Source of the DNA: Arcticibacterium luteifluviistationis
GTDB taxonomy: Bacteria > Bacteroidota > Bacteroidia > Cytophagales > Spirosomataceae
Length of the DNA stretch: 64,000 nucleotides
Reading direction: 5' to 3'
Assembly (NCBI RefSeq): GCF_003258705.1
Contig: NZ_CP029480.1
Coordinates: forward strand, 5,022,001-5,086,000
Position numbers and translations under genes: made by a program. Of this stretch, positions 5,384-8,656 are shown piece after piece; the first letter of the stretch is position 1; each line of letters opens with the position of its first letter. The notes beneath the pieces were generated by a model that ran no database searches, had not been told where the DNA came from, and worked only from the letters and a program-made list of their open reading frames with translations.

Positions 5384-5573
5384 TAAAATAAACTTGGCTT
5401 TATCTAGATACAATCTTCTTAAGATTCAAACGCTTAGGACAAAATAAGCTTCAATTCTCATTAAGGGGTAATTCCAGAATAACAATGGAAGGCTGCCGAA
5501 TGGCTTAACAGAAAGTTCCATTGGGCATTTCTGCATATAAGGCATTCCCAAACAAAATACGGGGGCTTAAAAC

Positions 5574-5602
5574 AAAAAAAGCCCACCTTTCGGTGAGCTT
5601 TT
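5574..5602 (-). terminator. Rho-independent terminator after tRNA-Arg
   Basis: Read on the minus strand, the stem AAAGCTCACC / GGTGGGCTTT with a GAAA tetraloop is followed by a run of Ts. It starts two bases past the 3' end of the tRNA, so it ends the GIY-YIG/tRNA transcript. Confidence 0.88.
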
Positions 5603-5603
5603 G

Positions 5604-5677
5604 TGACCTCGCCAGGATTCAAACCTGGAACCTCTTGAGCCGTAATCAAGTACTCTATTCAGTTGAGCTACGAAGCC
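5604..5677 (-). tRNA. tRNA-Arg (anticodon ACG)
   Basis: The 74-nt cloverleaf folds by eye. The acceptor is GGCTTCG / CGAGGTC with two G-U pairs, the D stem is GCTC / GAGT, and the anticodon arm is CTTGA-TTACGGC-TCAAG with ACG at positions 34-36. The T arm is CCAGG-TTTGAAT-CCTGG and the discriminator is A. The 3' CCA is not encoded. This tRNA is expected to read CGU/CGC/CGA after A34 is converted to inosine. Two nearly universal bases are changed together: G19 is A (plus-strand position 5659) and C56 is U (position 5621). That would replace the G19-C56 elbow pair with A19-U56. Its first ten bases overlap the end of the GIY-YIG gene. Confidence 0.93.
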
Positions 5678-5913
5678 AAAATCTTATTTAAATATTCTCT
5701 TCCAACACCAGATTTAAGATATTTCTCTCTTTCTCTAGCTTCTGTACGAGTTGCAAACTCTTCAAAGTGTTTCAATTCCCAAGGAATATGACCTTTTGTA
5801 AACTTACTTTTTCCTCCATTATGTTCTTTCAATCTTCTATCAATGTCTTTCGTCAATCCAACATAACGAATTCCTGATTTTAAAGAAAATAGAATGTAAA
5901 TATAATATTTCAT
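5668..5913 (-). CDS. Small GIY-YIG nuclease embedded in the tRNA-Arg gene
   Basis: The 81-residue protein is essentially a single GIY-YIG domain. It has YYIYILFS (residues 3-10) and RYVGLT (16-21) for the two signature strands, the catalytic-type Arg in DRRLKEHN (26-32) and the conserved Glu in TRTEAREREKYLKS (E58). GIY-YIG enzymes cut DNA through a single tyrosine/arginine/metal site, and short free-standing versions are common in Bacteroidota. The ATG at 5911-5913 comes seven bases after a relic of the tRNA 5' half. Its last codons (Ala-Ser-stop) are the first bases of the intact tRNA, and the TAG stop is tRNA nucleotides 8-10. The arrangement suggests a homing-type element that restores the tRNA it interrupts. 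Expression would come from the tRNA promoter upstream. Confidence 0.88.
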   Translation of the reverse strand: MKYYIYILFSLKSGIRYVGLTKDIDRRLKEHNGGKSKFTKGHIPWELKHFEEFATRTEAREREKYLKSGVGREYLNKILAS

Positions 5914-5919
5914 TCCTTA

Positions 5920-5973
5920 AATCAAGTCCTCTATCCAGTTGAGCCCTGTCTGCCGACAGGCAGGTACGAAGCC
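5920..5973 (-). pseudogene. Relic of the tRNA-Arg 5' half
   Basis: Read on the minus strand from 5973, the sequence is GGCTTCGTA, then a 20-bp insertion, then GCTCAACTGGATAGAGGACT and TGATT. Apart from the insertion and two substitutions it equals nucleotides 1-34 (linear count) of the intact tRNA-Arg, and it ends in the anticodon loop just before ACG. Identity is lost immediately after, at TAAGGAATG, where the nuclease gene starts. The relic keeps the canonical G18G19 that the intact copy lacks. It cannot fold as a tRNA, since it has no 3' half. Confidence 0.85.
5945..5964. repeat. 20-bp imperfect palindrome inserted in the tRNA relic
   Basis: CCTGTCTGCCGACAGGCAGG is self-complementary except for two G-U-type positions. 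It sits exactly between tRNA nucleotides 9 and 10 of the relic. Short CTGCCTG-type palindromes recur between genes in many Bacteroidota, so this is probably one copy of such a dispersed repeat. Confidence 0.7.
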
Positions 5974-6015
5974 ATTCCAGAAATAAATGAAAATATTTTC
6001 CTTTATTTCGGACTG

Positions 6016-6047
6016 CAAAAGTAAGGGTATTTCTATTTTAACGCAAA
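6016..6047 (-). promoter_or_regulatory. Promoter of the tRNA-Arg / GIY-YIG transcript
   Basis: On the minus strand, TTTG (6047-6044) is followed after 20 bp by TACTTTTG (6023-6016), a full match to the Bacteroidota -33/-7 pattern. It lies about 43 bp before the tRNA relic, where the promoter of the ancestral tRNA should be. Confidence 0.65.
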
Positions 6048-6054
6048 CACTTTC

Positions 6055-6360
6055 TCAATTTTTTAACTCGTCCAATAAATCAGGGTTAATAGTTTTATAG
6101 TGTTGTCTTAATTTCAAAATTATTGCAAGTGCCACTGCTACCTCTGAAGCCGCTATTATCATTATAAAAAGGCTGAAAAGCTGGCCTTCAAAAGGGTCAG
6201 ATGCATTTCTAGCTAAAGCCACAAAATTAATATTTACAGCATTTAGCATCAGTTCCACTCCCATTAGCATCATTATTAGATTTTTCTTGGTTATCAAAAC
6301 CGCAAAACCTAAAGCAAACAGAATGGCTGAAACATATAAAAAGTAAGAACTTTCAATCAT
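6055..6360 (-). CDS. nuoK: NADH-quinone oxidoreductase subunit K
   Basis: The 101-residue membrane protein has three transmembrane helices. The family hallmarks are GVELMLNAVNINFVALAR, carrying the conserved Glu in helix 2, and IIAASEVAVALAIILKL with the Glu of helix 3. NuoK is part of the antiporter-like membrane arm of complex I and takes part in proton translocation. The length is normal for the family. The start at 6360 overlaps the stop of nuoJ by four bases (ATGA), so the two are translationally coupled. It is the last gene of the nuoIJK unit. Confidence 0.95.
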   Translation of the reverse strand: MIESSYFLYVSAILFALGFAVLITKKNLIMMLMGVELMLNAVNINFVALARNASDPFEGQLFSLFIMIIAASEVAVALAIILKLRQHYKTINPDLLDELKN

Positions 6361-6893: not shown

Positions 6894-8504
6894 TTAATCT
6901 TTTTTAGGTTTCTGCGTAGGCTTGAAAGCAGGCTTACTCGGTGTAAACTTTGGCGTAGCTTTTACTTCTTCTTTATTCTCTACCTCCTCACTCTTTGGTT
7001 TCTGCGTAGGTTTAAAAGCTGGCTTGGCTGTCGGTGTAAACTTTGGCGTAGCCTTTACTTCTTCCTTATTCTCTACCTCCTCAGTCTTTGGTTTCTGCGT
7101 AGGCTTGAAAGCAGGCTTACTCGGTGTAAACTTTGGCGTAGCCTCTACTTCTTCCTTATTCTCAACCTCTGCTGCCTTTGGTTTCTGCGTAGGTTTAAAA
7201 GCTGGCTTGGCTGTCGGTGTAAACTTTGGCGTAGCTTTTACTTCTGACTTATTCTCTACCTCCTCACTCTTTGGTTTCTGCGTAGGCTTGAAAGCAGGCT
7301 TACTCGGTGTAAACTTTGGCGTAGCCTCTACTTCTTCCTTATTCTCAACCTCTGCTGCCTTTGGTTTCTGCGTAGGTTTAAAAGCTGGCTTGGCTGTCGG
7401 TGTAAACTTTGGCGTAGCTTTTACTTCTGACTTATTCTCAACCTCCTCAGTCTTTGGTTTCTGACTTGGTTTGAAAGATGGTTTTGCACTCGGCGTAAAC
7501 TTTGGCGTAGCTTTTACTTCTGACTTATTCTCTACTTCCTCAGTCTTTGGTTTCTGACTTGGCTTGAAAGATGGTTTTGCACTCGGTGTAAACTTTGGTG
7601 TAGCTTTTACTTCTGTATTAGTTTCGGCTGTGTCATCTTTTGGCTTCTGACTTGGTTTAAAAACAGGCTTAGCACTTGGCGTAAACTTTGGTGCTGTTGA
7701 TTTAGCCGTTGGTTTAAATACGGGTTTTGGTTTATCCGATCCTTCATCCGCAGGTTTCATCCCTGGTTTGAAGGCAGGCTTTCCAGCCGAAGGCTTGAAT
7801 ACTGGTTTTCCATCGCCAGAAGATTTTGCACTTGGCTTAAATATAGGACTGCCTGTCGGTTTTGCTTTTTGGGTAGGACTAAATACTGGTCTTCCAGCTG
7901 GCTTCTCTGAACCCTCTGTTTTAGCAGTTAATTTCTGTTTTTCAGCTTTTAAAGCTTCTTTTTCTGCTACGAACTGGTCATACAGGTCCCTTTTCTCTTG
8001 AGCGTCTTCCTCTGAAAGGTTAGCAAAAGCAAAATTAAGGTCTGTTACATCCACCACAGAATAGTCGTATTCGCTATTCATGGTCAAGCACTCCGTAGGG
8101 CACACAGTAGTACACAAGCCACAGAAACAGCATTTCGCCATGTCTATGTCAAATTTGGCCGCATGAAGACGTACGGGAGAGCCATCAGAAGTACTCCTGA
8201 TGAGTTCTGGAGACTTTATAGCCTCAATATCAATACAGTCTACGGGACAAATCTTCGCACATTTGTCACAAACGATACAATCATCGATTTCACAATCCAA
8301 CTGATTCCTACCATGATCTGGAATATCTATTTTTTGATGAGGATACTGAATTGTGACATGACCTTTATCTAATTCAAAAAAGTCTGGCTCAGATATCTGT
8401 TTTTCAGCTCGTGAAAAACGTGCGTCAGCCAAATGCTTTAAGGTAAGACTCATGCCTTTGGCAGTAGTCTTTATACCTTTCTTAATGTTTCCGAAATAGG
8501 ACAT
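6894..8504 (-). CDS. nuoI: NADH-quinone oxidoreductase subunit I with a long repetitive tail
   Basis: The ATG at 8504 (MSYFGNIKKGIKTT) fits NuoI better than an upstream ATG at 8540, giving 536 residues. Residues 1-180 are an ordinary NuoI: two ferredoxin motifs, C76-x2-C79-x2-C82-x3-C86-P and C125-x2-C128-x2-C131-x3-C135-P, bind clusters N6a and N6b, which pass electrons to N2. Normal family length is about 150-220 residues. Here some 350 extra residues follow. First comes a charged helix and short FKPSAK-type units, then eight full and one partial copies of a 30-31-residue Lys/Pro/Thr-rich repeat. The tail is probably disordered and on the cytoplasmic arm; its job is unknown. The rest of nuo is not in this window. 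Confidence 0.92.
   Translation of the reverse strand: MSYFGNIKKGIKTTAKGMSLTLKHLADARFSRAEKQISEPDFFELDKGHVTIQYPHQKIDIPDHGRNQLDCEIDDCIVCDKCAKICPVDCIDIEAIKSPELIRSTSDGSPVRLHAAKFDIDMAKCCFCGLCTTVCPTECLTMNSEYDYSVVDVTDLNFAFANLSEEDAQEKRDLYDQFVAEKEALKAEKQKLTAKTEGSEKPAGRPVFSPTQKAKPTGSPIFKPSAKSSGDGKPVFKPSAGKPAFKPGMKPADEGSDKPKPVFKPTAKSTAPKFTPSAKPVFKPSQKPKDDTAETNTEVKATPKFTPSAKPSFKPSQKPKTEEVENKSEVKATPKFTPSAKPSFKPSQKPKTEEVENKSEVKATPKFTPTAKPAFKPTQKPKAAEVENKEEVEATPKFTPSKPAFKPTQKPKSEEVENKSEVKATPKFTPTAKPAFKPTQKPKAAEVENKEEVEATPKFTPSKPAFKPTQKPKTEEVENKEEVKATPKFTPTAKPAFKPTQKPKSEEVENKEEVKATPKFTPSKPAFKPTQKPKKD
6897..7694 (-). repeat. Tandem 90/93-bp coding repeats in the nuoI tail
   Basis: Nine units start with (T/A)PKFTP and contain KPxFKP(S/T)QKPK followed by an acidic stretch of the EEVENKxEVKA type. 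Units 1-4, 6 and 8 are 31 codons, units 5 and 7 are 30 codons, and unit 9 is cut short. From unit 4 on, long and short units alternate (4+5, 6+7, 8+9), so the array last expanded as 183-bp doublets. The reading frame is kept throughout. Confidence 0.9.
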
Positions 8505-8508
8505 ATCA

Positions 8509-8527
8509 CAAAGATAGGACAAAGATA
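8509..8527 (-). promoter_or_regulatory. Tandem -7 elements upstream of nuoI
   Basis: TATCTTTG occurs twice on the minus strand, at 8516-8509 and 8527-8520, eleven bases apart. Both match TAnnTTTG. The nearer copy ends only four bases before the nuoI ATG at 8504, so its transcript would be nearly leaderless. This suggests nuoIJK has its own promoter. Confidence 0.5.
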
Positions 8528-8656
8528 ATTTAAATTTCATTAATCTACTAAATTGATAGACTAAGTTCTTTCAAGTTTAAAACTATACAACCTTCAAAAC
8601 AAGCTATAAGCTTAGAATCTCATCAAAAAATCATGAATTGAATTAACTAAAGAAGT

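Follow-up and report, generated by a model that had tools for sequence, protein, structure and literature searches.

The window, a 64,000-nucleotide stretch of the Arcticibacterium luteifluviistationis genome, probably carries one member of a family of minimal GIY-YIG elements that lack an intron, reside in tRNA genes and have putative mobility and cutting. In our reading, each element goes with a single tRNA family and a single class of palindrome, and one working tRNA is kept.

All parts of the locus lie on the minus strand, in the order nuoK, promoter, relic, GIY-YIG gene, intact tRNA-Arg and terminator. The nuoK gene (6360-6055; Pfam Oxidored_q2) is followed by a putative tRNA-gene promoter read from the sequence (6016-6047), with TTTG at 6047-6044 and TACTTTTG at 6023-6016. 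By the Bacteroidota consensus these two motifs are promoter-like, and the uninterrupted tRNA-Arg genes of relatives are preceded by a TACTTTTGCA-like element. The promoter now stands upstream of the relic and the nuclease gene. The relic (5973-5920) corresponds to nt 1-34 of the tRNA-Arg(ACG) 5' half and consists of GGCTTCGTA, a 20-nt palindrome, and 25 nt reaching to the anticodon loop. It matched the intact tRNA-Arg at 32 of 34 positions, with an alignment score of 47; the highest score among 40 shuffled flanks was 23. The 81-aa nuclease is encoded at 5668-5913 (Pfam PF01541, E 1.4e-17), and its stop codon TAG forms nt 8-10 of the intact tRNA-Arg(ACG) at 5603-5677 (ARAGORN; Rfam RF00005, 56 bits). 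An intrinsic terminator lies at 5577-5602. The sequence-only reading had described this order of promoter, relic, 81-codon gene and tRNA as well as the shared stop codon, and both were confirmed.

The palindrome, CCTGCCTGTCGGCAGACAGG (5945-5964), had been missed by that reading. Alignment and pattern search located it between relic nt 9 and 10, at the edge of the D-arm. Its pattern had no other match within the 64-kb window, even at three mismatches. The identical 20-mer was present in three copies genome-wide, including that of the relic, and no tRNA likeness was found in the surroundings of the other two. The predicted RNA structure of the relic leader was not unusual (z 0.39). Positions 5550-6100, compared with Rfam under an E limit of 1, returned the tRNA and four sub-threshold families only, none of them an intron, in agreement with the intron-free unit proposed earlier. 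The GIY-YIG gene was the only ORF of at least 60 aa between the relic and the tRNA, so this interval encodes no site-specific integrase. Elsewhere in the window, a minus-strand gene (6894-8540) encodes a 4Fe-4S protein with Fer4 matches at residues 88-153 and a long repetitive tail (FKPTQKPK-like). By gene position only, it is in the place of NuoI; a DNA repeat of period 93/183 bp lies within the gene at 6907-7691.

Residues Y6, Y17, R27, H31 and E63, presumably the catalytic residues of the GIY-YIG nuclease, were invariant in 41 aligned relatives. The predicted structure of the 81-aa protein had a pLDDT of 93.9, and its nearest folds were UPF0213 and SLX1. The nearest solved relatives by sequence were the same two, UPF0213 (1zg2) at E 4e-13 and SLX1 at E 3e-7. 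Similarity to the I-TevI type was weak, with 1mk0 at E 0.0025 by sequence and a sub-threshold match to NCBIfam TIGR01453. SLX1 acts on branched DNA. Together with the predicted fold, this makes a structure-specific cut at tRNA arms plausible for the present nuclease.

A search for tRNA-Arg in 61 genomes of the family gave a match in 42 and yielded 30 loci, nine of which have nuoK upstream of the tRNA. The nuclease is present in two of the nine, the window and G019. The other seven (L204, L205, L206, L213, L226, L227 and L229) gave no nuclease match in the locus. In these seven, the tRNA starts 52-85 nt from nuoK; the relic in the window starts at 81 nt and the intact tRNA at 380 nt. Judged from this spacing, the seven loci show the GIY-YIG unit as an insertion at nuoK-tRNA-Arg, and the earlier proposal of an insertion that keeps the tRNA was upheld. 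In six of the seven, nothing within 500 nt resembled a further tRNA-Arg copy clearly better than shuffles did, and the seventh, L226, has two intact tandem copies and no nuclease. In G019, the nuclease has the intact tRNA-Arg on its upstream side and a second, full-length relic on its downstream side. This genome also has a short relic upstream of the tRNA, whose palindrome stands at nt 9, the position seen in the window; it comprises 17 nt around the palindrome, was read by eye, and its alignment score of 21 against 22 for shuffles is not above chance. At another locus (L202, G033), an intact tRNA-Arg(ACG) is followed about 200 nt downstream by a degraded partial copy, with no nuclease seen between them. 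This is perhaps a site that lost its nuclease.

Empty and filled sites were also found within one genus at tRNA-Leu(TAA), where the filled G374 and the empty G107 are 98% identical over 225 nt (L231 vs L232). After the Leu terminator, G374 has the nuclease, a tRNA 3' part with a palindrome and a second terminator, followed by a flank similar to that of G107. The intact tRNA-Leu of the filled L245 is identical to those of the empty L239, L241, L244, L246 and L258. Filled and empty genomes can therefore share the intact tRNA, and cutting of the tRNA gene by the nuclease should also hit the genome that carries the element. At first, filled and empty sites seemed to differ in the variable arm of tRNA-Leu(TAA), as expected for immunity through a changed tRNA, but the difference disappeared with more loci.

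The arrangement recurs widely. A nuclease match at E up to 1e-3 was present in 44 of 99 relatives (own genome counted). Within the order, a nine-row profile found matches at 1e-12 in 172 of 390 genomes, with 0 to 9 matches per genome. Loci were sampled from the profile matches listed in the 390 genomes, in four batches that left out about the last two dozen. A named-genome scan gave 45 loci from Bacteroidota, Chlorobiota, Ignavibacteria, WOR-3 and Patescibacteria records, many of them MAGs, and from one Clostridiales MAG, whose locus scored 58 bits and had no tRNA. Altogether, 218 HMM hits across 186 loci were reduced to 167 distinct sites by dropping hits under 70 bits and identical neighbourhoods. 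These sites belong to Bacteroidota, Chlorobiota, Ignavibacteriota, WOR-3 and Patescibacteria. An intact same-strand tRNA lies within 110 nt at 117 sites, upstream at 71 and downstream at 46, so that the mirror order of tRNA, nuclease and relic is the commoner in this sample. The 50 sites with neither were compared with a library of 140 tRNAs, which revealed a tRNA-like flank on the nuclease strand in 38 and none in 12. Thus, 155 of 167 sites are linked to a same-strand tRNA or tRNA-like sequence. A tRNA flank was present in five of 19 GIY-YIG sites under 60 bits; since tRNA-linked copies made up most of the profile, such linkage is expected among high scorers, and 155/167 versus 5/19 contrasts subfamilies rather than random draws. 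Tandem arrays of two or three units, spaced about 310-405 bp, were also seen. The relic-nuclease-tRNA order, which the sequence-only reading suggested looking for elsewhere, was found in other genomes and at other tRNAs.

Phages gave no match to the element. Viral contigs gave two partial loci among 28 pattern matches, and plasmids gave eight records with tRNA-length matches only. One family nuclease (L119, G183) lies 221 nt downstream of a tmRNA gene and not of a tRNA, and tmRNA may be a further target. A high-scoring nuclease without a tRNA (L005, G087 contig 5) has flanks that seem to hold an inverted repeat, CAGGTTGAATAA / TTATTCAACCTG. A distant GIY-YIG subfamily occurs near tRNA-Ala(GGC) in f1 genomes (L016, L017, L019, L022-L025, L027 and L028), on the opposite strand in five of the nine, and is perhaps a settled descendant.

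A relic was accepted where its score beat all 100 shuffles by more than 5. This held at 98 of the 117 tRNA-flanked sites, on which all relic counts rest. Intact tRNAs of one kind flank the nuclease on both sides at L076 and L089. With the tRNA downstream, translation ends inside the tRNA at 22 of 46 sites, most commonly with TAG at nt 8-10 (9) or at nt 21-23 (8).

The relics bear directly on a first alternative, in which a classic homing unit carries the nuclease and a replacement tRNA half from donor to recipient and uses one fixed cut site. Empty and filled alleles do exist, the enzyme is a GIY-YIG nuclease, and passages of PMC3630166 describe the mobile ORFs of fungal mitochondria as working in this way. 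However, relics with a downstream tRNA end anywhere between nt 20 and the last nucleotide of the tRNA, and full-length relics are present. The anticodon loop, which the sequence-only reading had named as the insertion point, was therefore abandoned as a general site. In addition, the relic matched the intact tRNA of its own genome best in 61 of the 81 relics compared (of 98), with 14 ties and another tRNA better in 6, though gene conversion could produce this and mask a donor origin. The duplicate is thus host-like, by origin or by gene conversion, and the carried-in replacement half of the earlier reading is at most partly supported. A homing gene is also expected to interrupt or alter its site and so leave the carrier immune. 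If the site lies in the tRNA, this does not hold here, the retained tRNA being uninterrupted and at times unchanged; a site outside the tRNA is possible. Overall, we consider a donor-borne homing unit unlikely.

The nuclease lineages are sorted by tRNA. When the amino acid of the adjacent tRNA is mapped onto a tree of 117 nucleases, 21 changes are needed, against at least 66 (mean 74) in 300 shuffles. For the side on which the intact tRNA lies, the same tree needs 22 changes, where shuffles had a mean of 36.5 and a minimum of 26. By these counts, the nuclease phylogeny follows the tRNA amino acid. The Leu group mixes Patescibacteria and Bacteroidota. The nuclease trees were built from 77 columns and their deep forks are unstable. 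A Met/Asp/Ala/Pro clade of 34 rows, which had support 88 in the quick tree, was not recovered as such in the careful tree, so no claim here rests on that clade alone.

The palindrome is a regular part of the relics. An insert of at least 12 nt occurs in 76 of 98 relics, mostly palindromic and usually at tRNA hairpin loops. On folding, half or more of the bases paired in 68 of the 76 and eight missed this threshold. The inserts lie in or at the edge of a hairpin loop in 79 of 100 cases (expected 42.0), and in 65 of 85 distinct inserts (expected 36.2; p below 1e-4). The other 22 relics were read by eye: 18 have an arm palindrome that had not come out as an insert in the alignment, and L049, L096, L175 and L177 have no clear one. 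In Asp, Ala, Pro and Met relics, the palindrome replaces the anticodon arm. At one tRNA-Leu(TAG) locus (L192, G069), a relic with a palindrome (744-763) is followed by an intact tRNA-Leu with no room for a nuclease between; it is a nuclease-less remnant or a non-autonomous form. The anticodon arm of tRNA-Asp (CCTGCCTGTCACGCAGG, e.g. L009) resembles CCTGCCTGTCGGCAGACAGG, and on this likeness a tRNA origin of the palindrome is conceivable.

The palindrome precedes the other decay of the relics. Counting mismatches, deletions and small insertions as changes, and leaving out six of the 98 relics with under 25 aligned nt, the insert was present in 22 of 23 relics with no other change, 30 of 30 with one or two changes, and 23 of 39 with more. 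Without counting small insertions, the figures were 27/28, 29/30 and 19/34. Since otherwise unchanged relics already hold the insert, it is early and does not belong to late decay, unless gene conversion keeps the relics fresh.

The palindrome classes also go with the nuclease. Three classes (CCTGCCTG/CCCGCCCG-like, TCCCGA and TCCGCC), whose patterns were written after seeing the sequences, were assigned in 75 of 98 relics, the remaining 23 being set aside as other or double. The minimum number of changes for three classes is 2. We found 3 on the quick nuclease tree and 2 on the careful tree, where free shuffles gave at least 15 and at least 16, respectively (500 shuffles for the careful tree). 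The link persisted with shuffles restricted within amino acid (p 0.002) or within host family (p 0.0005 to 0.001). Palindromes of the CCTG kind at Asp (L072, L073), Ala (L067) and Ser (L176) accompany nucleases that group with the Arg/Glu/Gln/Leu-type in the quick tree. A pattern-free comparison of 93 of the 98 palindromes gave a Spearman coefficient of -0.51 between palindrome similarity and nuclease distance, more extreme than all 999 shuffles under each of four schemes, a test that cannot separate shared descent from recognition. Descent of nuclease and palindrome as one unit is enough to explain the class link, with recognition a possible further cause.

Outside the relics, the strict palindrome was found in seven of 99 genomes, all among the eight with the best nuclease hits, and its reversed control in none. 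Of its 20 sites, seven are within tRNA relics, among them the 17-nt relic of G019 read by eye. A looser pattern, which also catches longer dispersed repeats, chiefly in family f19, was present in 59 of 90 nuclease genomes against 23 of 300 others (p 3e-28), genomes that are not independent draws, the positive set (E up to 1e-17, 90 of 390) having been chosen after the profile search of the order. The association held outside f19 (13/36 vs 13/281, p 2e-7) and within it (46/54 vs 10/19, p 0.009), and the reversed control matched four of 390 genomes. Many dispersed palindromes of f19 genomes (L278-L320) lie within longer conserved repeats, e.g. GTCATG-palindrome-CTCGATTTCAT. A general preference for hairpin tips was also considered and rejected, as non-tRNA sites had 5.19 crossing pairs against 4.81 in shuffles (73 sites, among the matches listed).

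These distributions allow a second alternative to be weighed, that the palindromes are unrelated to the nuclease and belong to the ordinary dispersed repeats, which Y1 (RAYT-type) transposases carry into neutral tRNA relics. The same kind of palindrome does occur elsewhere in genomes, often within longer repeats, and G163 has 24 palindromes without a nuclease hit at 1e-12. Y1 transposases are common, with genes in 72 of 99 relatives. However, they are present in five of the seven genomes with the strict palindrome, so there is no Y1 link to the palindromes, and Y1 transposases were rejected as the palindrome partner. The confinement of the strict palindrome to genomes with the best nuclease hits, its share of sites in tRNA relics, its presence in unchanged relics and the class link that survives restricted shuffles all argue against this alternative, which we regard as quite unlikely.

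Selection acts on the nuclease itself. In 13 close pairs (dS up to 0.5), dN/dS had a median of 0.17 and a range of 0.07-0.36, and the sequences of these close pairs indicate purifying selection; the median was 0.62 in 61 less close pairs. Such selection would suit a domesticated host gene kept beside tRNA genes, for example for their repair or regulation, with the duplication incidental, and so would the distant GIY-YIG genes near tRNA-Ala in several relatives. Against this stand the presence and absence of the nuclease within one genus, the range from 0 to 9 matches per genome, the tandem arrays, the many different tRNAs and the nuclease tree sorted by tRNA, and we find a host function very improbable. 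A plain tandem tRNA duplication with a chance ORF between the copies, for which the tandem tRNA-Arg copies of L226 without a nuclease might speak, is scarcely tenable given the Pfam GIY-YIG match, the tRNA linkage of 155 of 167 related sites and the recurrence of the same gene at this place.

The explanation we prefer is therefore a minimal element of three parts. The unit consists of a single-domain nuclease gene (about 240 nt), a second tRNA copy, partial or full, and a short palindrome in an arm of that copy. The nuclease, of a lineage tied to one tRNA family, would break that tRNA gene, and repair of the break would install the nuclease gene and duplicate part or all of the tRNA. One tRNA would stay functional, leaving translation unharmed. 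The other copy, upstream or downstream, would be disabled early by a palindrome put in, or swapped for, a hairpin arm, and would then decay. Where the intact tRNA lies downstream, the nuclease stands behind the tRNA promoter and often borrows its stop codon from the tRNA. The anatomy, the empty sites, the ties of nuclease lineage to tRNA and to palindrome class and the early arrival of the palindrome are observed, whereas we infer the cutting, the mobility and the agent that installs the palindrome.

A stronger form of this explanation is possible, though we put it forward tentatively. It is a three-part selfish system unlike any known, in which an SLX1-like single-domain GIY-YIG nuclease belongs to a lineage devoted to a single tRNA family and a single class of palindrome. 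The enzyme, or the outcome of repair, would install the palindrome in the hairpin arms of a tRNA copy, and the cell would keep the working copy. The nuclease might then play for its palindrome the role that RAYTs play for REPs, with GIY-YIG chemistry, and some dispersed palindromes might be by-products.

If the explanation holds, this would be a very small self-spreading unit of about 0.3 kb with one 81-aa enzyme, and a way of living in essential genes without harm. It would explain why many Bacteroidota genomes have several small GIY-YIG genes of the tRNA-linked nuclease family, and would provide an annotation rule for the ORFs of this family and the adjoining tRNA relics. That palindrome class goes with nuclease lineage suggests that another, unrelated type of enzyme stands behind mobile palindromes in bacteria, and makes the origin of some repeats directly testable.

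A literature search covered the top-ranked papers by title and abstract start, with preprints and most subscription papers outside its scope; none of these papers concerned the nesting of GIY-YIG genes and tRNA genes in bacteria. Within the same literature, no paper contained the palindrome in any of four spellings. The element was compared with the closest known systems. Islands with a tyrosine integrase insert in tRNA genes and leave the tRNA functional; they carry the integrase and are kilobases long. The present element likewise occupies a tRNA gene whose tRNA is functional, but has one 81-aa nuclease and no integrase. It shares the GIY-YIG fold with group I intron endonucleases of the I-TevI type, but the similarity is weak, the GIY-YIG domain makes up the whole 81-aa protein, and an intron is absent. 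UPF0213 (1zg2) and SLX1 are closer, as the nearest solved sequences and fold. SLX1 is a structure-specific nuclease that works with a partner protein, and we know of no tie of SLX1 or UPF0213 to tRNA genes.

In REP-RAYT systems, the palindrome class goes with the enzyme lineage, and the same feature appears here, with 2 changes against at least 16 in shuffles. RAYTs belong to the IS200/IS605-type (Y1) enzymes and have two inverted REPs at their flanks (PMC2817692). The likeness lies in an enzyme gene beside a short palindrome with copies elsewhere in the genome; the present enzyme differs in being a GIY-YIG nuclease, its palindrome lies inside a tRNA copy, and Y1 genes are not associated with these palindromes. 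The mobile endonuclease ORFs of fungal mitochondria, in Allomyces atp6 and in Glomus atp6, atp9, cox2 and nad3, are described in passages of PMC3630166 as endonuclease genes within a host gene but outside an intron, with the host 3' part doubled and a whole gene remaining. One of the four Glomus cases is GIY-YIG (PMC3630166). As in these passages, the endonuclease gene lies between an intact and a displaced copy of the host gene, here at 98 of 117 tRNA-flanked sites. The fungal ORFs differ in occupying protein genes, in doubling the C-terminal part only, in being larger and in a duplicate held to be foreign, and the passages of PMC3630166 mention no palindrome partner. The present elements occupy bacterial tRNA genes at either end, with a host-like duplicate and a palindrome class linked to the nuclease. 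SegB, a homing nuclease near tRNA genes in T4-like phage, shares the linkage of a homing-type nuclease to tRNA genes; it is a phage gene, and the abstract start of PMC13096335 mentions no tRNA relics or palindromes.

Features of free-standing homing genes found here are a GIY-YIG domain with invariant residues and empty alleles at the same place. In view of the uninterrupted tRNA, if this is the site, and of the lack of an Rfam intron and of a Y1 link, we have not filed the element under any of these systems. Taken together, a tRNA-linked nuclease with a broken spare tRNA copy, beside many tRNAs in distant bacteria, points to an undescribed kind of minimal selfish element.
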